A DNA stretch of 64,000 nucleotides from Chrysoporthe austroafricana. Taxonomy: Eukaryota > Ascomycota > Sordariomycetes > Diaporthales > Cryphonectriaceae. Location of the stretch: the NCBI GenBank assembly GCA_001051155.2, contig JYIP02000010.1:682001-746000 (forward strand). Reading direction: 5' to 3'. Numbering within the stretch: position 1 is the stretch's first letter; every line of letters begins with the position of its first letter. Shown here in pieces: positions 22,889 to 34,245 of this stretch. Under the pieces are notes generated by a model, which had not been told where the DNA came from, searched no databases, and saw nothing but the letters and a program-made list of their open reading frames with translations. A program made the position numbers and the translations under genes.

Positions 22889-25800
22889 TCAGATCCTGGA
22901 CCATCGCAGCAGCACGGCCGCAGCGATGACAGGCAGGACGCTGACGAGCTCGCCCAGGCCGGCGAACCCGGGCGGGATCCTCGCGTCGACAAATGCGCCG
23001 GCGGCGAGCAGGATGGCGAGCACGTTGTAGAGGAAGCTCCAGCCGAAGTTGAAGGCGACCCTGCGCATCGACTTCCTGCTGACGGTGATGGCGGTGATGA
23101 TCCCCCCGAGGGCCGGACGCATGAGGATGACGTCGGCCGCCGACTGGGCGACGTCGGTGCCCCCTTCGTTTATGTGCACGCCGATCGTAGCCTGGGCTAG
23201 CGCGACCGCGTCGTTAGTCCCGTCGCCGCAGAAGATGACGACGGGCTTCTCGGCTTTCCTCCCCTTGGCGGTGTGATCCGGTGACACAGGGCCGTCGAGG
23301 AGGTCTTGGATGTACGCCTGCTTGTCTGCGGGCGTGCAGCGAGAGCGGACGTGTGTCTCGGCAATGTTCAGCCGGGTTGCGACGGAGCGCACGGGGCCGT
23401 CATCATCACCCGAGATGATGTGGACCGATATGCCGCGATCGAGTAAGCTCTGGACCGTAGGCGTGGCGTCGAGCCGGACTGAGTCTGCGAGACCGAAGAT
23501 CGCGGCCACGGAGCCAGCGATCGTGAAGCAGAAGGCTGTGTGCCCCTGTGACAGGGCCGATCGCACGACCGCATCAGAGGTAAGATTGAGCCAGCGGGCG
23601 TTGCCTCCCCGAAGGGTCAAGCCGGAGCTCTTCGCAGTGCCCTCGACACCCTTTCCTGTCAGGGTCTTCGGGTCGGACACCGGTGAAGGTGTCACGCCCT
23701 GCGCTTTGAGGTGCCTGGCCACAGCGGCGGAGACAGGATGCTTGATGCTCCCCACTAGGCCAAGGAGCAGCGCCTGGGTCGCGGTCTGGTCGCCGCCGCC
23801 GTACCATTCCTGGGCCACAGTTAGCTTGCCCTCGGTGATGGTGCCGGTCTTGTCGAAGACCACATGCGACGTCTTGTAGGCGACCTCGATGCACGCTGCC
23901 GATTTGAAGATCACGCCTCGCTCAGCGGCAACACCGCTGGCGATTACGATGACCATCGGGACTGCGAGTCCGATCGCACAGGGACAAGACACAATCAGGA
24001 CCGTGATAGCGTAGGTAATGGCTTGAATCGCAGCTTCGCCTCCAGACTGCCCACGAACTTTAATACCGACAGCGACCCAGGTGCAGAACGTAAGAATTGT
24101 AATGGCTATGACAACCGGAACAAAGTAGCTCGCGACAAGATGTGCGGTGTCTTGGATCTTTGGCTTCGACAACTTCGCTTCGTCAGCCATGCTGGCAATA
24201 GTGCTGATGGTATTGTCGCTGGGAACCCGTGTCAAGCGCACGTACAGGACGCCCGAACCGTTGACTGAGCCAGCGATCACCGGAGACTTGACGTGCTTCT
24301 CGACTAGCGTGGACTCTCCCGTGATCATCGACTCGTCCACTTCAGATGAGCCAGAAATCACCGTGCCGTCGGTGGGGATCCGCGAATCGGGGTCAACTTT
24401 GAAGACATCCCCATACTGAAGGAGGCGGGCATCGATCTCGGTCTCGCCGTCGTCGGTCACCAGACATGCAGTCGTGGCCTGAAGAGACCGAATGGAGATG
24501 GACTCTACGGCCATCTGGCGTGCTAATGCACTCAGGTAACGGCCCATCATGATGAGGGTGACTAAGAGGGTACTGGTCTGGAAGAACTCGCCCGTGGACA
24601 GCTGCCGGCCTGAGACCGTATAGCCGAAGGAGACGACCGAGAAGATGTAAGCCGTGCTGGTGCTCAGCACAACAAGCAGGTCCATCTCGATCACCCTTGA
24701 GAAGATGAGAGCCTTTAAGGCCTTTGGATAGAACGGGCCAGCGATAATGAACTGAACGAGGGTGGCGAGGGCGAACGACGCGGAACCATACACGATGTGG
24801 CGCTCGGGAAGCGGAGCCCAGGCCATGACCAGAACCGGGATGGTGAGGCATGCAGAGAGTAAGGTCATGTAACCAACGTGACGGACATGCTTGCTGCCGG
24901 CTTCGAGTGTCAGGTCGGGGCGCAGGGGAGCGAGATGGACTGGGCCGTCGCTCCAGCCGCCGTTAATGAGATCCCTAGCTCCTATGATCTTGGCATCATA
25001 GCTGACGTTGACGGTCTTCGTGTCCACGATCCTCACATCAGTAACGCCCTCCGGCCAGGGTTGGGTAATAAAGGCGGCGGTGTCGCCGTCTGGAGCAATG
25101 AGATCGATGTTCGAGCCTCGATTTGTGACCCTCTCGCACTTGAATTCGGTCGTCCGCTCGAGATACCTCATGACCTTCACCACAGAGGCAGTACCGACCA
25201 GGTCGAACTCGGCGCGAGACAGAACTAGGCTTGTCTTCAGACCTTTAACTGATGGGTGGGTGCCGAGAGTTCGAGCGAGCTTCGTCTCGCAGCCGGTGCA
25301 TGTCATCCCAGAGATGCTGAGGACGACATGCTCCTTCTCGTCGCAGGATAGTCTCTTCTCAAGGTCGGTATCATGCGCAACATCGGCAGAGACTACTATT
25401 GACTGCTGGACGGGACCGCCGCCTTGCTCCTCAGCGCAGCAGGAATCGGCACGAGGGCCTGCCCTGCTCGCAGGCCGACACCTACCCTCGATCCCCTCGC
25501 CACTACAGCATCCCTTCTTGGGGCCTGTGCGCTTCTTCTCAGAGCAACAGGCCGTGTCCGTGAGGCTGCTGGCGCAGAACGAGCTGACAGAGGCACGCGA
25601 CGGCGACAATCCCTCCTTGGGACGGCGGCGAGCGCTCCCGGCGGATGAGCGGCGCCGGGGGCTGCAGCAAGACTCCTGCCCGAGGGCGACCAGCGCACGA
25701 CAGATACAGCCGAGGGCCTCAAGTCTCCAAGCGTACGTCTTGTGCGTCTCGCGAACGTGATGGGCGCACGGCTTGCCGTCGCTGCCTCGGCCGCAGCCGG

Positions 25801-26248
25801 TCAGGGCAGACTCACGGTGTCTGCATTCGCGCAGCGCGAGGCGGTCGAGGCAGGACTGGTCGCAGCATGGAGCGGCCTTGCCATCGCAGCAACTAGGTGT
25901 AGGTGTGTCATCCAGGCCCGGCGGCGCCGGTGTAGAACAGCAGCCCTTATTGCAGCTAGGCCCCACGGCGCCGGCAGCGCGGTCGTTGTCGTCGTCATCG
26001 ACGAGACCTGCGTCATCCTTAATCTCGCACCTGGCGCTGTCCTGTGGCTCCTCGTCCAGTCCATCGCAGCACGCGTCCTGGAGAGGGGTCAAGGCCCTCA
26101 AGGGCGGTGGGTCGTCCTCGCCGGTCAGCTGGTGGCGCGCAGGCCCGGCGTCCTGATCCTCGTGCGTCTGGGTCTGAGTGGGGGATGCTGGAGTTCCTTT
26201 GGGCGAGGCTACCGCAGGCGGCCCGCAACAGCCCGAGTCGCAAGTCAT
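22889..26248 (-). CDS. P1B-type heavy-metal (Cu/Cd) transporting ATPase, PCA1-like, with Cys-rich N-terminus
   Basis: Single exon, 1119 aa from ATG at 26248. The frame stays open 84 codons further upstream with another ATG at 26500, but the Cys-pair region MTCDSGCC fits a true N-terminus better. The first 300 residues hold about nine CC or CCx pairs, as in PCA1-type pumps. One HMA domain follows, with GMTCTGC (C317-x2-C320). The pump core has TGES in the actuator domain and the CPC transport motif in SCPCAIGLAVP (about C755). The phosphorylated Asp is in DKTGT (about D799), followed by IKHP as the His-Pro motif and GDGTNDAVALA. About eight membrane helices are expected, and the substrate is a soft metal such as Cu(I) or Cd(II). 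It is likely at the plasma or vacuolar membrane. Its 5' end is head-to-tail with the CHAT gene. A decayed paralogue lies at 34.6 kb. Confidence 0.92.
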   Translation of the reverse strand: MTCDSGCCGPPAVASPKGTPASPTQTQTHEDQDAGPARHQLTGEDDPPPLRALTPLQDACCDGLDEEPQDSARCEIKDDAGLVDDDDNDRAAGAVGPSCNKGCCSTPAPPGLDDTPTPSCCDGKAAPCCDQSCLDRLALRECRHRESALTGCGRGSDGKPCAHHVRETHKTYAWRLEALGCICRALVALGQESCCSPRRRSSAGSARRRPKEGLSPSRASVSSFCASSLTDTACCSEKKRTGPKKGCCSGEGIEGRCRPASRAGPRADSCCAEEQGGGPVQQSIVVSADVAHDTDLEKRLSCDEKEHVVLSISGMTCTGCETKLARTLGTHPSVKGLKTSLVLSRAEFDLVGTASVVKVMRYLERTTEFKCERVTNRGSNIDLIAPDGDTAAFITQPWPEGVTDVRIVDTKTVNVSYDAKIIGARDLINGGWSDGPVHLAPLRPDLTLEAGSKHVRHVGYMTLLSACLTIPVLVMAWAPLPERHIVYGSASFALATLVQFIIAGPFYPKALKALIFSRVIEMDLLVVLSTSTAYIFSVVSFGYTVSGRQLSTGEFFQTSTLLVTLIMMGRYLSALARQMAVESISIRSLQATTACLVTDDGETEIDARLLQYGDVFKVDPDSRIPTDGTVISGSSEVDESMITGESTLVEKHVKSPVIAGSVNGSGVLYVRLTRVPSDNTISTIASMADEAKLSKPKIQDTAHLVASYFVPVVIAITILTFCTWVAVGIKVRGQSGGEAAIQAITYAITVLIVSCPCAIGLAVPMVIVIASGVAAERGVIFKSAACIEVAYKTSHVVFDKTGTITEGKLTVAQEWYGGGDQTATQALLLGLVGSIKHPVSAAVARHLKAQGVTPSPVSDPKTLTGKGVEGTAKSSGLTLRGGNARWLNLTSDAVVRSALSQGHTAFCFTIAGSVAAIFGLADSVRLDATPTVQSLLDRGISVHIISGDDDGPVRSVATRLNIAETHVRSRCTPADKQAYIQDLLDGPVSPDHTAKGRKAEKPVVIFCGDGTNDAVALAQATIGVHINEGGTDVAQSAADVILMRPALGGIITAITVSRKSMRRVAFNFGWSFLYNVLAILLAAGAFVDARIPPGFAGLGELVSVLPVIAAAVLLRWSRI

Positions 26249-26895
26249 GATGGACGATTGTGCAGGTATACAGATTCTGGACGGCTGAGTTGATAGACAG
26301 TCTTTGGTGTCGAGATAGGCGGTCAAGGACAAAAATCGGAGAAGGTGGTGGTGGTGACTGCAGCGATGTGACTTCGAGCCCACAACTGCTGCATGGACCC
26401 CGCCGAGGCTCGTTCCAGCAGAAGTGAGTCGCGCGGAGGCGCTTAAAAACTGCTCGGTAAATCTTAGAACAGTATTGTCAGGTAGTGGCGTGGCTCGCAT
26501 ACTTTCTAGTTGGTCGAGTCCTTGGGGAAATGCTGTATTTGACCTGTAAGAAATTCAATATCTTTTTGGTGTTGCTGTTTTCTTTTTCCGGGCGCGACTC
26601 TGTCTTCTCAAGACCAGAAGTGATTACTATCAGATCGCCTCTTGACGACCGATTCCTTTATAAATCAGCCAGATTCCCGGTTCCTGCTATCTTGTCTACG
26701 GGATCATCGGCTACGGCTGTTATTGAATTAAAACCTCAAGCTTATAGTCAAGGGTTTAAAGTTTAGTAAAGAAACGTCTTTCAACGCTCTACCCTTCTTC
26801 TAGTACGCATACGGATACACATATGCATATGTATATGTCCATAGTGGCATCTGTGCTTGTCATCATTGCAATTGTAGTTTGAGGCCCGCTAACTA
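26249..26895. other. intergenic/5' region of P-type ATPase
   Basis: Holds the ATPase promoter and 5' UTR and the 3' end of the CHAT gene; both genes are on the minus strand. The part nearest the ATPase remains open in its frame (26249-26500) and may be translated if the upstream ATG at 26500 is used. The rest is AT-rich with no gene signal. Confidence 0.45.
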
Positions 26896-29800
26896 TTAAC
26901 AGAAGCCCAGGTGTATATAGGACATCCAGGAGTACGAGAGACTCTCTGCTGGTCGCCCTCCCGAGCTCACGTCTCTCTTGAAAACAAGTCCCCTGCCTGT
27001 GCCCGCCGTCCTGGTACCTCTCATCTTGCGTAACGACCGGTGCAGCGCCATAGAGACCGACTCCTTCGTTAGCCTGGACCTGATGATGTGCTCGTAGAGC
27101 CCGTGGGCGACCTCGGCGGAATCTCTGTCTCCGACCTTCCACAGCGCCGCGACGACATTCTGGAAGCCGGCCGCGAGGAACGATGCCGCCAGGTGGATAC
27201 CCTCGTCCACGAGCCTATCCACCATCGTGCTGCCCGTCAGGCACGCTGAGAGATAGGCGAGCAGCGGCGGGTCGAGGCTGAACTTGAGGTCGACGAGATT
27301 CCCCACCGAGACGGGGCCGTCTGCGACCTCGAGCGCGCTCTTCATCGGATCGGTCGGGTCGGATCGGCCGTGGCCAGCAAAGTGGAAGACGTCGCAGTGC
27401 TGGAGCTCGCCGACCAGGTAGGCGCTCGAGGGAGAGTCGACCTCGTTGATGCAGACGTGCGGCTGCAGCTGCCTGCCCACGGCCTTGGCCTCCTCGCGGG
27501 CGTGGAGCAGGCGTGGCATCTTGGGCGTGCGGGTCATGCTGGCGATGAGAGCACGCCGGCTGCTCATGGCCCCGCGCCTCGACGGCCTGCCCTCGTTCTC
27601 GGCGGCGAACTGCAGGAACTTGATGGACGGGCTGTACGAGGAGATGACCCGGTCCAGGGTCGTCCTCTTCGAGCCGTCGTTGTGGTATCCCGCCGCGTGG
27701 AGCGGCAGCTGGGACAGCGGCCCTGTCGGCACCCAGCACACTCGCGGCCATCTGTCGTCCTCCTCCTCCGATGGCGTTGCGGTCATGTCGAGATGCTCCA
27801 GGATTGGACCCACCACGACGTCCCACAGCCATTCGAGTTCGTCGTGGATATCGAACGGGACGGGCCTCAGGGCGATCTTCTCTGCAAACCGGGCCGCCGC
27901 TTGTTGGAACGATGCGCCGTTCACCTCCAGCCCCGGTAATGCGAGGGAGGTCACTGCGTCTTTCCGCACTATGAAGGCGTGTGACTGGAAAGAAACGTTG
28001 ATCACGACGATCGCGCTTGTCCGCTTGTCGGCCAGCAGCGCCTGAGGATCTGCGTGGCTCAGGAAGTCTTTCGTCTGGTCGTCTTTCCGTATCTCGTTGA
28101 TGAGGGAGGTGAGGTCACTCTCGACCCTGCGCCGCTGGGACAGGCTCATGCCACTCTCTGTCGCCTGCATGGTATGCCTCGGCTGCAGCCAGCCGTCGTC
28201 GAGGGCGCGGTAGAGATCCTCCACCTTGTCAGCGAGGTCGGTCCGCACAGAACGCAGGCGCTGGATGTCGACGCGTCGCTCGAAGCGGCTGCCCGAGATG
28301 AGGCAGCGACCCTGCTCGAGGAGCTGCAGAGCGTCGTGGCAGCTTCGTCCAGCTGCCAGCGCCGCGGCGGCGGCCTCCCTGGCGAGCCCCGGGAACTGCA
28401 GCAGGGCGTGCTGCTGATCGCCCTGGTCTAGACTTCCAGAGACGAGAGTGGGAAGGTGTTGAACCGCTGCGGCAGTCGCCTCGTAGACTTTGCCCCAGTT
28501 GCTCTCCGTGGACGCGATCTGGCCGAGGGACAGGGCTATCTTGATTCGGTCCGTGAGTAGGCACTTGTCTGCCGCCATCATCTGCTCGAGCACCTCCTTC
28601 GCGCGCGCCCGATCGCCATATCGTTCCACACCCCGTTTCTTGCCGTTTCGATACCTGGTCTCCAGCGCATCAGCGAGTGTGAGCGCCACCTTCGACCTCT
28701 CCGGGTGGTCTGGGGCTGCCTGCGCTACCTTGAACGCAGCCTCGGCAAGCCTGATAGCCTCTCCGATGATATCGTCTCCCTCTACCTCGGACGGGACTGA
28801 ACCTTGGGCACGCCCGAGCTCAGTAGATGCCTTGAGCCAGACCGAGAGGTTAGAAAGCGCCCAGAAGTTGTCGTGCTGTATCTCTAGCGACTGCCGGCCG
28901 CACTTGATAGCGGCCTCGAGATCCTCCGTCGCATGCTGGTCGCACCGCTCCCACCTAGTCCCGTACAGTATTCCCAGGTTCGAGTAGGCAATAGCTTTCC
29001 GGTCCTTTCGAAATGTACACTCAACCGATTTCTTACCGCACTCGATGGCCGTGTCGAGATCGGATTTTTGACCCCGCCGGTCGAATGCCGTCGACAGCGT
29101 AAGTGACTTGGCTTGCATGAACGTACCGTATTCAACGTTTTCTGTTGATATCCCTTCAATCGCCTCATCGGCAAAGGCCAAGGCCCGGTCAAGATCGTCG
29201 AGAGCCCCCGTAGCGCGATATCGAGTCCTAGTGGCGTGGCACAATGTGCAGAGTAGGTTGGCCCTGATGGCCCAGCTCTGAGCCGCACGGGCTTGCGGGA
29301 GCACGTCCTCAGCCTTCTCTGTGGCGCTGCGGAGGTCATCCGGATTTCCATCTAGCTCATATCGTTCGAGGAGTCTGTTGCATAGGTTGGTGACGTACTG
29401 GATCCGCATTGGATGGCCAGCGGACGTCTCGACGAGCTGATCCATCAGCCTCAAGGACTCGTCCAGGCTCTCTCTGTGGCGCGTGCGCTCGAAGTGCCAC
29501 AAGAGACGAACGCTGTAGCAGTTGATGATGTTGGACCAGTTCCCCTGGTCTTCGATGGCCAGGGGGTGGTGAGCCGCCCTCCTGTTGTACTCGAGGGCCT
29601 CGTTGAGATCCTCGATGTTGTTGGTCCGTTCGTACCAGCTGCCGAGTGTATTGCCAAGGTTGCACTGCCTTGCCGGCTTCATGCGGTCGTCAGCGCCTGT
29701 GAGCCGCTCTACTTCCCGCTTGAGCTCGATAGACTGAGCAAGATACTCGCCGTCCTGGGTCGCCTCGTACATGAGGGTTAGGCTCGTCGCCAAGCCCGTT

Positions 29801-30300
29801 TTGAGAGAGAGGCTGTGCCCAGGGTCTTCTGGGTAGTCGGCGATCGCTCCCCTTCCCAACTGGATGGCCTCCTTGAGGCTTTCTATCTTGCTGCTGGTCT
29901 CGTAGCTCGTCCTGAGCAGAGCAGACAGCCCATTTATTATGGATGATCTGTGGATATCTTCACGTGGCACAATGCGCACCGCTTCTCTGCTCAAGTTCAC
30001 CGCGTTGTTTAGATCGAGTGGGTCCTGGTGTAGGCGATATCGTTCTAATAAGCGCCGAGACAGTGCGTCGAGAATCTTGTGCCGCATAGGATGGCTTTTG
30101 GAGGCCCTTCTATACGCCTCTTCGCAGTGCGAGACCGCGGATTGCAGGTCCTGCTCCCTGCCTGTCTTTTGGTACTTCCTGCTCTGCTCTATCCCATACT
30201 GGGCGAGACCCAAGGCGTACTCGTCCGGTTCTTGATATTGCACTTCCTGAGGCGGCTCCGGGGCTTGCACAGCTGTGGACTCAGGGTTCATGTCGGCCAT
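26896..30300 (-). CDS. TPR-CHAT protease (caspase-like CHAT domain)
   Basis: Single exon, 1134 aa, starting MADMNPESTAV. Residues about 25-560 are repeated helical units with recurring motifs such as RLLERY, DLNNAVNLSREAV, LGNTLGSWYERTN and DLDRALAFADEA. These are the degenerate tetratricopeptide repeats that fungal CHAT proteins use as sensors. The C-terminal 300 residues are a CHAT domain, a clan CD cysteine-protease fold related to separase and caspases. The catalytic pair is visible: H977 in HFAGHG and C1020 in YLSACLTG, followed by LAASFLAAGFQNVVAALWKVGD. The reading frame is intact. It starts 638 bases from the divergent caspase gene at 30939, so the two may share a promoter. In bacteria and fungi such proteases cleave pore-forming effectors. 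Its own target is inferred only from the neighbouring gasdermin-like gene. Confidence 0.9.
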   Translation of the reverse strand: MADMNPESTAVQAPEPPQEVQYQEPDEYALGLAQYGIEQSRKYQKTGREQDLQSAVSHCEEAYRRASKSHPMRHKILDALSRRLLERYRLHQDPLDLNNAVNLSREAVRIVPREDIHRSSIINGLSALLRTSYETSSKIESLKEAIQLGRGAIADYPEDPGHSLSLKTGLATSLTLMYEATQDGEYLAQSIELKREVERLTGADDRMKPARQCNLGNTLGSWYERTNNIEDLNEALEYNRRAAHHPLAIEDQGNWSNIINCYSVRLLWHFERTRHRESLDESLRLMDQLVETSAGHPMRIQYVTNLCNRLLERYELDGNPDDLRSATEKAEDVLPQARAAQSWAIRANLLCTLCHATRTRYRATGALDDLDRALAFADEAIEGISTENVEYGTFMQAKSLTLSTAFDRRGQKSDLDTAIECGKKSVECTFRKDRKAIAYSNLGILYGTRWERCDQHATEDLEAAIKCGRQSLEIQHDNFWALSNLSVWLKASTELGRAQGSVPSEVEGDDIIGEAIRLAEAAFKVAQAAPDHPERSKVALTLADALETRYRNGKKRGVERYGDRARAKEVLEQMMAADKCLLTDRIKIALSLGQIASTESNWGKVYEATAAAVQHLPTLVSGSLDQGDQQHALLQFPGLAREAAAAALAAGRSCHDALQLLEQGRCLISGSRFERRVDIQRLRSVRTDLADKVEDLYRALDDGWLQPRHTMQATESGMSLSQRRRVESDLTSLINEIRKDDQTKDFLSHADPQALLADKRTSAIVVINVSFQSHAFIVRKDAVTSLALPGLEVNGASFQQAAARFAEKIALRPVPFDIHDELEWLWDVVVGPILEHLDMTATPSEEEDDRWPRVCWVPTGPLSQLPLHAAGYHNDGSKRTTLDRVISSYSPSIKFLQFAAENEGRPSRRGAMSSRRALIASMTRTPKMPRLLHAREEAKAVGRQLQPHVCINEVDSPSSAYLVGELQHCDVFHFAGHGRSDPTDPMKSALEVADGPVSVGNLVDLKFSLDPPLLAYLSACLTGSTMVDRLVDEGIHLAASFLAAGFQNVVAALWKVGDRDSAEVAHGLYEHIIRSRLTKESVSMALHRSLRKMRGTRTAGTGRGLVFKRDVSSGGRPAESLSYSWMSYIHLGFC

Positions 30301-30938
30301 TGGTATTGAAGAGGACTAATGTAACGTCCAGAAGTTGCCTCCGCGCTGGCTAGAGTAGCTTGATCACGACGCGGCCAAATAAGTACAAGACCAGCTGGGT
30401 TACTTCTTATGCAAAAGCCTCTAAGGCGGCCCCACAGAGCGCAAAGCCGCTGATAAGCTCAAAGTCGACCGCAAAGCACAGCAAGTGGCGTCTTGAATGG
30501 GAAGCAAGTCCTCGTACTGGGCAGATCCGAGGGATCCGAAGAGTCATCCTGACAAGGAGGAACGTTATTTACCAATAGGTTAACGAGACCTCTGAGAGCT
30601 CGGGACTTGACAGGCCTGCCCGCCCAATGGTTTCACTGTGGCTAGCCCACCCCTCCCTCAGCTTGGCTGGAAAAGCTTGTTTATACGCTGTATGATAAGC
30701 CAGCTTCACATGTACTGCTGCCTAAGGCTGCGGTTGTCTTCGAATCGCGGACTTAGGATATGAAAGCTGAAACAGCATTCCCGGAGGCGGGGTGATTTGT
30801 CGACTGAGACTTGCATCGCATGCAGCGCCAGCCTCCCAGTAGCTCTCCTGGTTGTGAAAAGAGCAAAGCCCATGCGTCAAATTATCGCACTCGTATGAGA
30901 ACTCTGTTTGAGGTCGTTATTATCTTTGTCGTTTCACA
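30301..30938. promoter_or_regulatory. bidirectional promoter region between CHAT and caspase genes
   Basis: A 638-base region between two divergent start codons, with no convincing gene of its own. It contains mixed AT-rich patches (about 30680-30780) and G/C clusters. The shared upstream region would allow co-regulation of the two proteases. No specific operator motif was identified. Confidence 0.5.
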
Positions 30939-33149
30939 ATGTCGTCTGGTCCGGCGACCCCCGGCCAGAAGCGCTTCTTCATCCTGATCGGAGTGGGCTA
31001 CTACTCGCAAGGGCACAAGCTTCGCACCGATGGAGGTAAATTGTGCAAGCTCCGAAGCCTCAGGGGTGCAGTACAGGATGTAGAGAGCGTTTACCGTCAT
31101 ATTCAAAAAGATCCCCAACTGCGAGACTCAACGGTGTTCAAGCTCACGTCGACGAGGTCTAGGGGAATTGGAAGGGAGACCGTGGAGTGTAGTTACCAGC
31201 TACCGACACGCGACAACATCCTATCCGTGTTCGAAAAAGTGGGAAAGTTAGTGAAGGAGGCCGGTGGTGGCATAGTCCATGTGCATTTTTCCTGCCACGG
31301 TGTGCGGCTTGCGACCGAGTACCCACACCTGAAGCCCGGCGGCATCGACGAGGCGATCGCACCCTACGACGCGTCCAAGACTGGACAGACACTTCGGGAT
31401 GTGGAGCTGAACGTCCTGATCTGGGGGCTGACCCAGAACGGCGCGCAGGTCTCGGTTGTCTTCGACTGCTGCCATGCCGGCAGCATCTCGAGGGGCGACT
31501 CGGACGACAGCGGCTCGGACGAAAGTGACTTGGAAGAAAGCGACTCCGATAGATCAGAGCCGGACGAGGCCTTAGGCTGGGAATCGGACCTGGACATCGG
31601 TGGACAGACGAGTGGAGAGGAGCGCGGAGTAGGCGAGGAGATCGGTGGCTTCAGCCGTGGCGACGCTCGAAGAGATGCCTGTCTCACTCCGGACGGCGAA
31701 GAGCTTGCCCAGACCTTGAAGGACGCGTGGGCCAGGAACAAAAAGACCTGGATGCTACCAATCAATTACGACATGTTTGGGAGCTGCTGTGAGGACGAGA
31801 AATCTTACGAGACTGTTGTGAGAGACGAAGAAGGCAAAGAAGTGTTCTGCGGGGTGTATACACACACGCTGCTTATGGCTCTCGAGGAAGCCCGTACCAA
31901 CCCGCACGCGCCAGTCCACGGCCACATTCACGACAGGATCCTCGCGACCTTCATAAGCGAGGAGCGAAAGAGGCAGACTCCTATATTTGTCGGAAACAGA
32001 AAGCGGCAATGGCTACAGCCGACGGAGGGCAAACATATTCAGTCGCTCTCGGTTATCAAGGTCGAGCGAAACGGGCTCATCCTGTCCGAGGGACAGATCC
32101 AAGGGGTGACGAGAGGGTCAATCTATGCCATCGTTCCGTGGGACCAGGCCGACCTCCTTGGAATATCCATGCGCCCATCGGTTAAGGTTACAGTCGTGTG
32201 CGCGGCGCAGTCACGCGCGGAATGGGTGGGCGAGCCATCCGTCGACGTCAAAGCGGGATACAAGGCCATTCTCGTAAAGCACAAGCTTGAGAACATCCGC
32301 ATTCAGCTCACACGCGCGCCTTGCCCCGAGTCTGCGGCTGAGATTGACGAGCTCGCTCGCGAGGGAGACGAAGATGACTCGGGAATGGTGGAAATCGTCG
32401 AGGATGGAGGACAGGGCACCAAGGCTCTCTACTGTGTCCGGGGGGAGCGCGACAAAGGTTTGCGGCTCGTGAAGAGCGACGGCAAGTTGGTTCCTCGTTT
32501 CCCGACAAGCTGGCATCCAGACGTCTTCTACGAATACCTGTTGCATCTGGCCAAATTTGAAACACTCAGAAAACTCTTCAATCCCTTTCCGTCAGAGGGG
32601 GTGCGTGGCTGCGTGGATTTTCAGATCAACGGGGAGGATATCGGGAGCCGTTGCGTCTGGGACGGGACCCCGGTCGAGAGCAAGGCTTGTCTAGACCTTT
32701 ATGTCGGCGACGCTTCTCTTGTGATCCGCAATAAAAGGAACAGCCCCATACGCATCGCAGTGTTCTTCTTCAGCCCCTTGTGGGCAGTACAAAGATGCTA
32801 TCTCGGTCCAGATAACGATGCGTTCGATACCCTTGGGCCCAATGAAGAGAAGAAGACGACCGTGGAGGTAGAGCATCTGCCAGACGGGTGGGATGAGTCT
32901 ATTGATCATGTCGACTACATCAAGTTCTTCATCTTCGACACGTCTCTGTCTGTCACATCGCTCAGATCGCTGGAGATGGACCCGCTGGACGAGAGGAGCC
33001 TGGAGAACGGCCGGGGAGAGAGCGATCTCGACGACATCTTGGAGGCGTTTGGCGCGGAGGATCGAGGTATTAGGCGCAAGCAAGACACGATAGCTGGCAC
33101 GTCTCCATGGATCACGTCAACATTTCGACTACGCACCAGGGCTAAGTAA
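30939..33149 (+). CDS. caspase-domain (peptidase C14) protein
   Basis: Single exon, 736 aa. The caspase p20-like half runs from KRFFILIGVGYY to about residue 185. The catalytic His is in HFSCHG (H120) and the catalytic Cys in FDCCHAGS (C178). Next comes an acidic, Ser/Asp/Glu-rich insert (about residues 185-245), where caspases have the interdomain linker, then a p10-like region (WMLPINYDMFGSC, FCGVYTHTLLMALEE). Residues 340-735 form beta-rich C-terminal domains (INGEDIGSRCVWDG; VDYIKFFIFDTS), a type seen in other fungal caspase-like proteins. It differs from type I metacaspases in lacking a Pro/Gln-rich prodomain. The gene is divergent from TPR-CHAT and tail-to-tail with the gasdermin-like gene (133 bases between stops), suggesting a role in regulated cell death. 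The catalytic dyad is intact. Confidence 0.88.
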   Translation: MSSGPATPGQKRFFILIGVGYYSQGHKLRTDGGKLCKLRSLRGAVQDVESVYRHIQKDPQLRDSTVFKLTSTRSRGIGRETVECSYQLPTRDNILSVFEKVGKLVKEAGGGIVHVHFSCHGVRLATEYPHLKPGGIDEAIAPYDASKTGQTLRDVELNVLIWGLTQNGAQVSVVFDCCHAGSISRGDSDDSGSDESDLEESDSDRSEPDEALGWESDLDIGGQTSGEERGVGEEIGGFSRGDARRDACLTPDGEELAQTLKDAWARNKKTWMLPINYDMFGSCCEDEKSYETVVRDEEGKEVFCGVYTHTLLMALEEARTNPHAPVHGHIHDRILATFISEERKRQTPIFVGNRKRQWLQPTEGKHIQSLSVIKVERNGLILSEGQIQGVTRGSIYAIVPWDQADLLGISMRPSVKVTVVCAAQSRAEWVGEPSVDVKAGYKAILVKHKLENIRIQLTRAPCPESAAEIDELAREGDEDDSGMVEIVEDGGQGTKALYCVRGERDKGLRLVKSDGKLVPRFPTSWHPDVFYEYLLHLAKFETLRKLFNPFPSEGVRGCVDFQINGEDIGSRCVWDGTPVESKACLDLYVGDASLVIRNKRNSPIRIAVFFFSPLWAVQRCYLGPDNDAFDTLGPNEEKKTTVEVEHLPDGWDESIDHVDYIKFFIFDTSLSVTSLRSLEMDPLDERSLENGRGESDLDDILEAFGAEDRGIRRKQDTIAGTSPWITSTFRLRTRAK

Positions 33150-33282
33150 GTCCGCCGAGGACTTGGGGGTTGCAGATGAAGAAGACATGGCAAAGCGATG
33201 GAATAGACATCGATAGAACAGTTATCTCATAATAACAGACTGCTTTCTCATCTATCCAGCCTATCTTGATCATGTAGAACGC

Positions 33283-34245
33283 TCAGAAAATGTGCCATAG
33301 TTCACCGTCGTTGTCCAGCCTAAAATCCTCGTAGTCAGCAAAGTCGCCTAGGTCGTCAGACTCGACATGCCCGCCAACCTGAGCCCTAAGGGTGACAAAA
33401 TCCGCATCTTCCTCTTCGCTCTCGTACTCGTCCTCATCCTCTCGATATCCAGGCTCCCCAAGACCGTCCTCGCTAGAGCTTTTAACGTCGGATTGCTCTC
33501 CTCGGCTTCCAAGATACGCCTTCCACTGTGCGCCCTCCTTCAGGGTGGGAGTCTTCTGGGAAGGCCCCCGGAACCATGAGAAACCCACCTGCCGGTACTG
33601 CACGGCGAAGATGTTCTCTCCGGGGAATGAGAGCGTGCTCGTCGCGCGGTTCTCGTTGCCGCGAGTCACTGCCAGCTCCGAGTCGAGGGCGCCCTCGAGC
33701 CCACCCAGCGTGGGCACGGCCCCATGTGTGGCCGCCAGCACCACGACGGACCCAGGCAGCTTGAGTATCGGCCTCCCGGCAAGCTTGTTTCCCCGGCGCA
33801 GTGTGACGCGGGCGTTCGTGAGCGTGATCACGCCCGTGGCCATGAAGACCTTCCGCCGGTCGCGCCACCGGCGTTCCAGCAGTTCGCGCACCGCGCGCAG
33901 CCTGCACGCCTCGCCGAAATAGCGTGTCGAGTTCGAGAGCGTCCGCGTCGTGACGAGCTCGGCATCAATCTTGTCCACCGCATCTCTCTCCACGGACAAG
34001 GTCGAACCTAGGACGGCCGTGAGAGCTAGAGACAGGCCCCAGGACTCGGCTGTCGCGGCGTCGTGCTGGAGCGCCTTTGCTTGGGTCTCCGTGCTCACCA
34101 GCTCGGGCCCGTCCGGACGCTCGTCCGACCGGAACGTGTCTTCGTAGTCGAATTCCGGGTTCGATATGTCCCCTACCAGTCGCCCGAGAGACACTGCCGA
34201 CACTGGTAGGAGGGTGGTTGAGACCCACTTGGCCTCCAACTGCAT
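33283..34245 (-). CDS. fungal gasdermin-like candidate with acidic C-terminal tail
   Basis: Single exon, 320 aa. The domain is assigned by pattern, not by search. Residues 9-40 (STTLLPVSAVSLGRLVGDI, then NPEFDYED) resemble the opening of fungal gasdermin-like proteins of the RCD-1/HET-Q1 type. ESWGLSLALTAVLGSTL (68-83) and VFMATGVITLTNARV (133-147) follow. FPGENIFAVQYRQVGFSWF (207-225) corresponds to a conserved strand in that family. Alternating hydrophobic stretches suit a beta-rich pore-forming fold. Residues 250-315 form an acidic tail (DEDEYESEEEDAD and DDLGDFADYEDF) that could act as the inhibitory or docking segment, removed by a protease. Family members form plasma-membrane pores after cleavage. 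The adjacent caspase and nearby CHAT genes fit that role. The alternative is an unrelated lineage-specific protein of unknown function. Confidence 0.6.
   Translation of the reverse strand: MQLEAKWVSTTLLPVSAVSLGRLVGDISNPEFDYEDTFRSDERPDGPELVSTETQAKALQHDAATAESWGLSLALTAVLGSTLSVERDAVDKIDAELVTTRTLSNSTRYFGEACRLRAVRELLERRWRDRRKVFMATGVITLTNARVTLRRGNKLAGRPILKLPGSVVVLAATHGAVPTLGGLEGALDSELAVTRGNENRATSTLSFPGENIFAVQYRQVGFSWFRGPSQKTPTLKEGAQWKAYLGSRGEQSDVKSSSEDGLGEPGYREDEDEYESEEEDADFVTLRAQVGGHVESDDLGDFADYEDFRLDNDGELWHIF

Follow-up and report, generated by a model that had tools for sequence, protein, structure and literature searches.

Background

Fungal gasdermin genes are reported to lie near protease genes in about 80% of cases, mostly near those of S8 proteases, and 17-19% of them are reported to lie near CHAT genes (surveys PMC10989679, PMC10197012). 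In the HET-Q1/HET-Q2 system, HET-Q2 is described as removing the C-terminal extension of HET-Q1 (PMC12881547, PMC10989679), which loses about 40 C-terminal residues through cleavage at F238 (PMC10989679). The location of a gasdermin gene beside a TPR-CHAT gene is likewise already published: in P. anserina a TPR-CHAT protein encoded in a two-gene cluster is reported to activate the gasdermin (PMC12881547). CHAT proteins also appear in other contexts, since SAVED-CHAT immunity is described as acting through a proteolysis cascade (PMC11229360) and the CHAT gene hetB as being involved in incompatibility of A. fumigatus (PMC11138114). Among the questions that reviews present as open are the substrates of fungal death proteases and the regulation of protease-bearing gasdermin activators (PMC13304501, PMC12881547).

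The locus described here lies in a 64,000-nucleotide stretch of DNA (C2:682001-746000, hereafter the window) of the 48-Mb Chrysoporthe austroafricana genome, which is assembled in 22 contigs. It combines a gasdermin-like gene with a TPR-CHAT-type gene and, additionally, with a gene for a metacaspase-like protease.

Organization of the locus

A sequence-only reading of the window had proposed a candidate cell-death module, in which intact CHAT and caspase genes diverge from a shared region and a gasdermin-like gene converges on the caspase gene. The ORF coordinates (Table 1) bear out this arrangement, including the 638 bases from which the two protease genes diverge and the 133 bases that separate the caspase gene from the convergent 320-aa gene. 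The proposed catalytic residues also fall within the right motifs (H977 and C1020 within FAGHG and SACLTG of the CHAT protein, H120 and C178 within SCHG and DCCHAG of the caspase), and the acidic tail ascribed to the 320-aa protein is indeed present over its last 90 residues. The divergent region may possibly serve as a shared promoter. The presence of a protease gene nearby, a common but not universal feature of fungal gasdermins, is seen here twice, with the caspase ORF at 133 bases and the CHAT gene at about 3 kb. A heavy-metal P-type ATPase gene, recognized by eye, adjoins the trio at 22889-26500.

Table 1. Coordinates of the gene trio and of genes related to the third gene of locus A (positions without a contig prefix are those of the window)
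Feature	Position	Strand	Evidence
TPR-CHAT-type protease gene, 1134 aa	26896..30300	-	ORF; PF12770 (CHAT), E 2e-31
Divergent region between CHAT and caspase genes, 638 bases	30301..30938	.	ORF coordinates
Metacaspase-like protease gene, 736 aa	30939..33149	+	ORF; PF00656 (Peptidase_C14), E 7.4e-9
Gasdermin-like gene, 320 aa	33283..34245	-	hhalign, shuffle control, Foldseek on low-confidence model
Parts of the 320-aa protein: pore-forming-type domain, about residues 1-230; acidic tail, about residues 231-320			
Acidic C-terminal tail of the 320-aa protein, residues 231-320	33286..33555	-	net charge -19
Relatives of the 340-aa protein of locus A	C1:4856612, C22:1611892, C2:472268, C16:4634809, C12:5087025		

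Codon usage marks the 320-aa ORF as a genuine gene. With a model trained on four neighbouring genes, its frame scored +0.246 bits per codon, compared with +0.21 to +0.36 for the training genes themselves, -0.38 to +0.08 for the other five frames and -0.12 to -0.20 for the flanking intergenic DNA.

The 320-aa protein as a probable remote gasdermin

Homology supports the placement of the 320-aa protein as a remote member of the fungal gasdermins of the HET-Q1/RCD-1 type. The gasdermin-like patterns noted in the sequence-only reading are backed by profile tests and, more weakly, by a fold search with a low-confidence model. The starting point was a 278-aa protein (L040:4927-5760), found adjoining an S8 gene, with matches to RCD-1-1 of Neurospora (1.6e-6) and to 9uv9, the pore chain of HET-Q1 (0.001). 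Used as a query, it retrieved three more gasdermin-like paralogues from the same genome (E 1.9e-9, 7.4e-7 and 1.1); the last of these matches is no accident, since the protein concerned shares 34% identity with HET-Q1 across 223 residues (7.7e-34). A profile of these four paralogues, built without the 320-aa protein, recovered HET-Q1 at 2.9e-27 and RCD-1-1 at 1.6e-12.

When this profile was compared with the 535 six-frame window ORFs of at least 60 aa, the 320-aa protein ranked first (E 0.0063), and inclusion of HET-Q1 in the profile gave it an E value of 3.8e-4. Residues 10-231 were aligned in order with the four paralogues by hhalign (E 1.4e-4, at a probability of only 52%). Against a local hhalign score of 42.5 (probability 76%), 200 shuffles reached at most 27.4 (mean 14.3, s.d. 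2.6), and the remaining 100 window ORFs of at least 150 aa no more than 22.0; with HET-Q1 in the profile, the score was 41.9, and the best of 150 shuffles reached 28.2. Pairwise comparison gave E 8e-4 to the L040 paralogue and 0.046 to HET-Q1. In window searches with single paralogues, the 320-aa protein came first once (E 0.15) and second once (0.4), and was not among the best four ORFs in the two others.

Searches of Pfam, PADLOC, NCBIfam and PHROGs assigned no family to the 320-aa protein, a single-sequence search of the PDB returned unrelated chains only (best E 0.27), and the viral and genome contig collections contained no relative; a weak match was observed in the genome at C6:94780 (E 2.19). 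Nothing was retrieved from the genome with Pfam's gasdermin model, a negative that carries little weight, because five gasdermin-like genes were found there by other means. Single-sequence AlphaFold prediction was useless (pLDDT 42.0) and was discarded. With a five-sequence model, itself of low confidence, the top 19 Foldseek rows were all gasdermins, which gives a weak indication of a gasdermin fold.

Three of the four paralogues are likewise acidic beyond residue 230 (net charge -7, -17 and -13), while the fourth (L044) carries +4 in the part read, and its gene model may be incomplete. Within the tail of the window protein, K231, K236, K242, R248, K255 and R268 are candidate cleavage sites.

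The two proteases

The CHAT domain occupies approximately residues 821-1132 of the 1134-aa protein and is preceded by a repeat-like region. TPR_12 scored 25.1 bits in this protein, below the cut-off of 30.1, and a profile of five CHAT proteins of the genome touched designed TPR chains at weak E values (0.023-0.051). The same profile matched Csx29 at 8.6e-8, and the window protein alone matched the NCBIfam Csx29 model at 2.1e-17 (63.2 bits, the model cut-off being 300 bits). The catalytic His and Cys are aligned in all five CHAT paralogues.

The caspase domain (approximately residues 12-352) includes a long acidic linker (about residues 183-270); judged by sequence, its fold is closest to metacaspases (C14B), with the His/Cys dyad present, and a profile of the five caspases described below had metacaspase-9 as its best match (2.1e-21). 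H120, C178, D47 and D176 are invariant across the five (for locus E, in the first ORF only). On the basis of metacaspase structures, D47 and D176 would presumably line the S1 pocket. The five caspases also resemble one another across some 350 aa at the C-terminus (model positions 20-362 of 375 matched; 18.5 bits, whereas the best of 500 shuffles reached 4.3), a region for which Pfam gave no match in the window protein.

A recurrent CHAT-caspase pair

Genome searches with the caspase and with the CHAT protein as queries fell side by side at further loci; these searches scored the best candidates only, and the locus counts are therefore lower bounds. PF12770 yielded nine rows: five full-domain loci (W, the window, and A, B, C and E), three remnant rows and one weak match. 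A caspase gene adjoins the CHAT gene at each of the five full, undegraded CHAT loci, at a distance of 484-2501 bases, for which a random-placement estimate is approximately 4e-15, assuming even spacing and independence. The ratio becomes 5/6 if the weak match at C17:3073261 is counted.

That match (C17:3073261-3073536; 26 bits, cut-off 24) is situated inside a 2154-aa ORF, perhaps a separase, and no caspase match was found near it. Degraded CHAT copies with stops occur at C21:1990745-1991604 (two rows) and C20:4149304-4149711, with no caspase in the 18 kb around each of these two remnants. Caspase matches without a neighbouring CHAT gene occur at no fewer than three other loci. The W and E caspases, absent from the Pfam caspase search listing, were counted from other searches. 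At W, B and C the CHAT and caspase genes are each a single ORF; the A CHAT gene and both E genes are split, presumably by introns, and the E CHAT match crosses stops.

Identity to the window proteins amounts to 23-31% for CHAT and 22-26% for the caspases, so the pair is old and not a product of recent duplication. Trees of the five CHAT proteins and the five caspases agree on the grouping of B with E alone; A joins W in one tree and B+E in the other.

The recurrence of the pair at four further loci in the same genome shows that the clustering exceeds chance. The earlier suggestion of a single effector flanked by two proteases of clan CD calls for correction: both proteases are there, but it is the pair that forms the unit, and the effector varies. 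At the four non-window pair loci the neighbouring gene encodes no recognized gasdermin, and a gasdermin-like gene adjoins the pair in one case among the loci found in this genome.

The variable third gene and S8 proteases

The neighbour of the pair is the gasdermin-like gene at W, a gene for a 340-aa protein at A, and a DUF6594 gene (PF20237, 1.4e-16 to 1.9e-18) at B, C and E, where it lies 1.2-1.7 kb from the caspase gene. The three DUF6594 matches consist of exon-like pieces, some crossing stops, and each protein contains strongly hydrophobic 19-residue segments (mean 2.7-3.5). The genome contains at least 12 DUF6594 loci (21 rows merged), three of them at the pair (chance estimate 4e-7) and nine away from CHAT, caspase and S8 proteases.

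The 340-aa gene of locus A (L028:3949-4968) is located 0.6 kb from the CHAT gene and its product has an acidic tail. No match to this protein was found in Pfam (two members scanned), NCBIfam, PHROGs or the PDB, and BLAST revealed no similarity between it and the 320-aa protein. The genome yielded at least five relatives (Table 1), with E values from 2.9e-27 to 9.7e-4; an S8 protease match occurs 0.8-3.5 kb from each of these five. The L039 relative is without an acidic tail (charge 0); about 2 kb from this 340-aa-family/S8 pair there is an ORF that by eye resembles a HET-domain protein (L039:3-1460, minus strand).

The other four gasdermin-like genes found in the genome each have an S8 match at a distance of 0.6-1.9 kb; three were found through homology, while that of L040 was found through its S8 gene and is no test of S8 adjacency. 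This S8 gene (L040:2290-3384) has an upstream DUF7580 stretch (1.9e-8), and the ORF adjoining the L045 gasdermin-like gene encodes ankyrin repeats (6.3e-19). At least 19 S8 loci were counted (22 rows merged), ten of them with no known gasdermin-like or 340-aa gene nearby; at one of these ten (L041) neither effector gene was seen by eye. The S8 (PF00082) match nearest to the window trio is 67 kb away. Two families thus each have one member at the CHAT-caspase pair and relatives at S8 genes, and it appears that the pair replaces S8 in both. The scheme is not uniform, given the untailed L039 protein, the nine DUF6594 loci elsewhere and the ten S8 loci with neither effector known close by.

Candidate death modules are concentrated in a segment of about 264 kb (C2:452372-716245), where the window trio is joined by one DUF6594 locus, one S8 pair with a 340-aa-family gene and two with gasdermin-like genes. 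A copper-ATPase gene adjoins both the window trio and locus A; its membership in the module was considered and dismissed, as the two proteins share 31% identity over 667 residues and by eye seem to belong to different subfamilies.

Discussion

The likeliest mechanism, to which we assign a probability of about 0.45, is that the gene trio encodes a cell-death module under protease control, operating as a relay from CHAT to caspase to gasdermin. The TPR-CHAT protein would act as the sensor protease and initiator which, once set off by a trigger, would activate the neighbouring metacaspase-like protease; this in turn would remove the acidic tail of the gasdermin by cutting after a basic residue at about 231-268, and the released N-terminal domain would form membrane pores, leading to cell death. 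We infer the trigger, the order and site of cleavage, pore formation and cell death from gene arrangement and homology. This reading gives CHAT the initiating role and leaves contact with the effector to the caspase, because the pair is constant and the effector variable, with S8 in that place elsewhere; since the other gasdermin-like genes and the relatives of the 340-aa gene adjoin S8 genes, the pair would stand in for a single activating protease. The conservation of the CHAT and caspase dyads at all five loci, together with the invariance of D47 and D176, supports the relay. SAVED-CHAT immunity provides a precedent, the next step of its cascade being a caspase. Against the relay count the limited agreement of the CHAT and caspase trees, on B+E alone, and the single occurrence in this genome of a gasdermin-like gene at the pair.

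A strong rival, which may hold although we rate it as doubtful, is that TPR-CHAT cuts the gasdermin directly and that the caspase has another task, as a second effector, as an amplifier, or by activating or clearing CHAT. The P. anserina two-gene cluster, in which TPR-CHAT activation is reported (PMC12881547), counts against the need for a second protease, and the reported frequency of CHAT genes near fungal gasdermin genes points the same way (PMC10989679, PMC10197012). However, the caspase gene is kept at five of five full CHAT genes beside three kinds of neighbour, which ties it to the CHAT unit rather than to any single effector. An inhibitory role of the caspase, as a brake or decoy that is itself the substrate of CHAT and whose cleavage lifts inhibition of the effector, is improbable: its long acidic linker and the common C-terminal region would suit such a role, but the invariant His, Cys and two acidic residues are what a working protease would show. 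Least probable of all is a chance neighbourhood: convergent ends 133 bases apart can be incidental and a gasdermin-like gene adjoins the pair once in this genome, yet the idea that it is a chance neighbour, with the pair working on something else, sits badly with the protease genes beside the other four gasdermin-like genes (one of them found by looking there) and with the protease proximity reported in the surveys of fungal gasdermins (PMC10989679, PMC10197012).

Extending the relay from CHAT to caspase beyond the window, we tentatively propose, at somewhat less than even odds, that it constitutes a plug-in unit. This unit would fire interchangeable membrane killers: besides a gasdermin, these would be membrane proteins of the DUF6594 family and a new family, with members of about 340 aa, for which S8 proteases do the firing elsewhere. 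The gene trio and the recurring pair together suggest a swappable self-destruct switch. In the parts of the fungal gasdermin literature covered, which lie outside the primary survey of Clave et al. 2022 (doi 10.1073/pnas.2109418119), no separate metacaspase-like gene is described as constantly accompanying CHAT, and no exchange of effectors at a CHAT-caspase pair was found; literature searches returned no paper on DUF6594 and none on a fungal CHAT and metacaspase gene cluster in incompatibility. The dedicated second protease and the effector exchange are therefore provisionally regarded as novel. The occurrence of the caspase with CHAT at five loci, once at a gasdermin-like gene, defines a concrete and testable protease-substrate pair. 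Moreover, the exchange of activators (S8 or CHAT with caspase) points to DUF6594 and the 340-aa family as two candidate families of executioners for genome mining.

Comparison with known systems

The locus resembles SAVED-CHAT of type III CRISPR systems, as described, in the CHAT protease that is proposed to head a proteolytic cascade; it differs in the repeat-type N-terminus and the gasdermin-like effector, and neither a SAVED nor a CRISPR component was seen. With Csx29 of Craspase it has in common a CHAT domain behind a repeat-like region and the match of the five-CHAT profile, although the window protein scores far under the cut-off of the Csx29 model. Its gasdermin-like protein with a short C-terminal extension and proposed protease control recalls HET-Q1/HET-Q2 as reported, but two cysteine proteases replace the S8 partner, and the tail is longer (about 90 versus about 40 residues) and acidic. 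Closest in gene content are the fungal two-gene clusters, in which TPR-CHAT likewise adjoins the gasdermin gene; unlike these, the window contains an extra metacaspase-like gene, which is also found at the four other full CHAT loci, where the pair is accompanied by another effector candidate.
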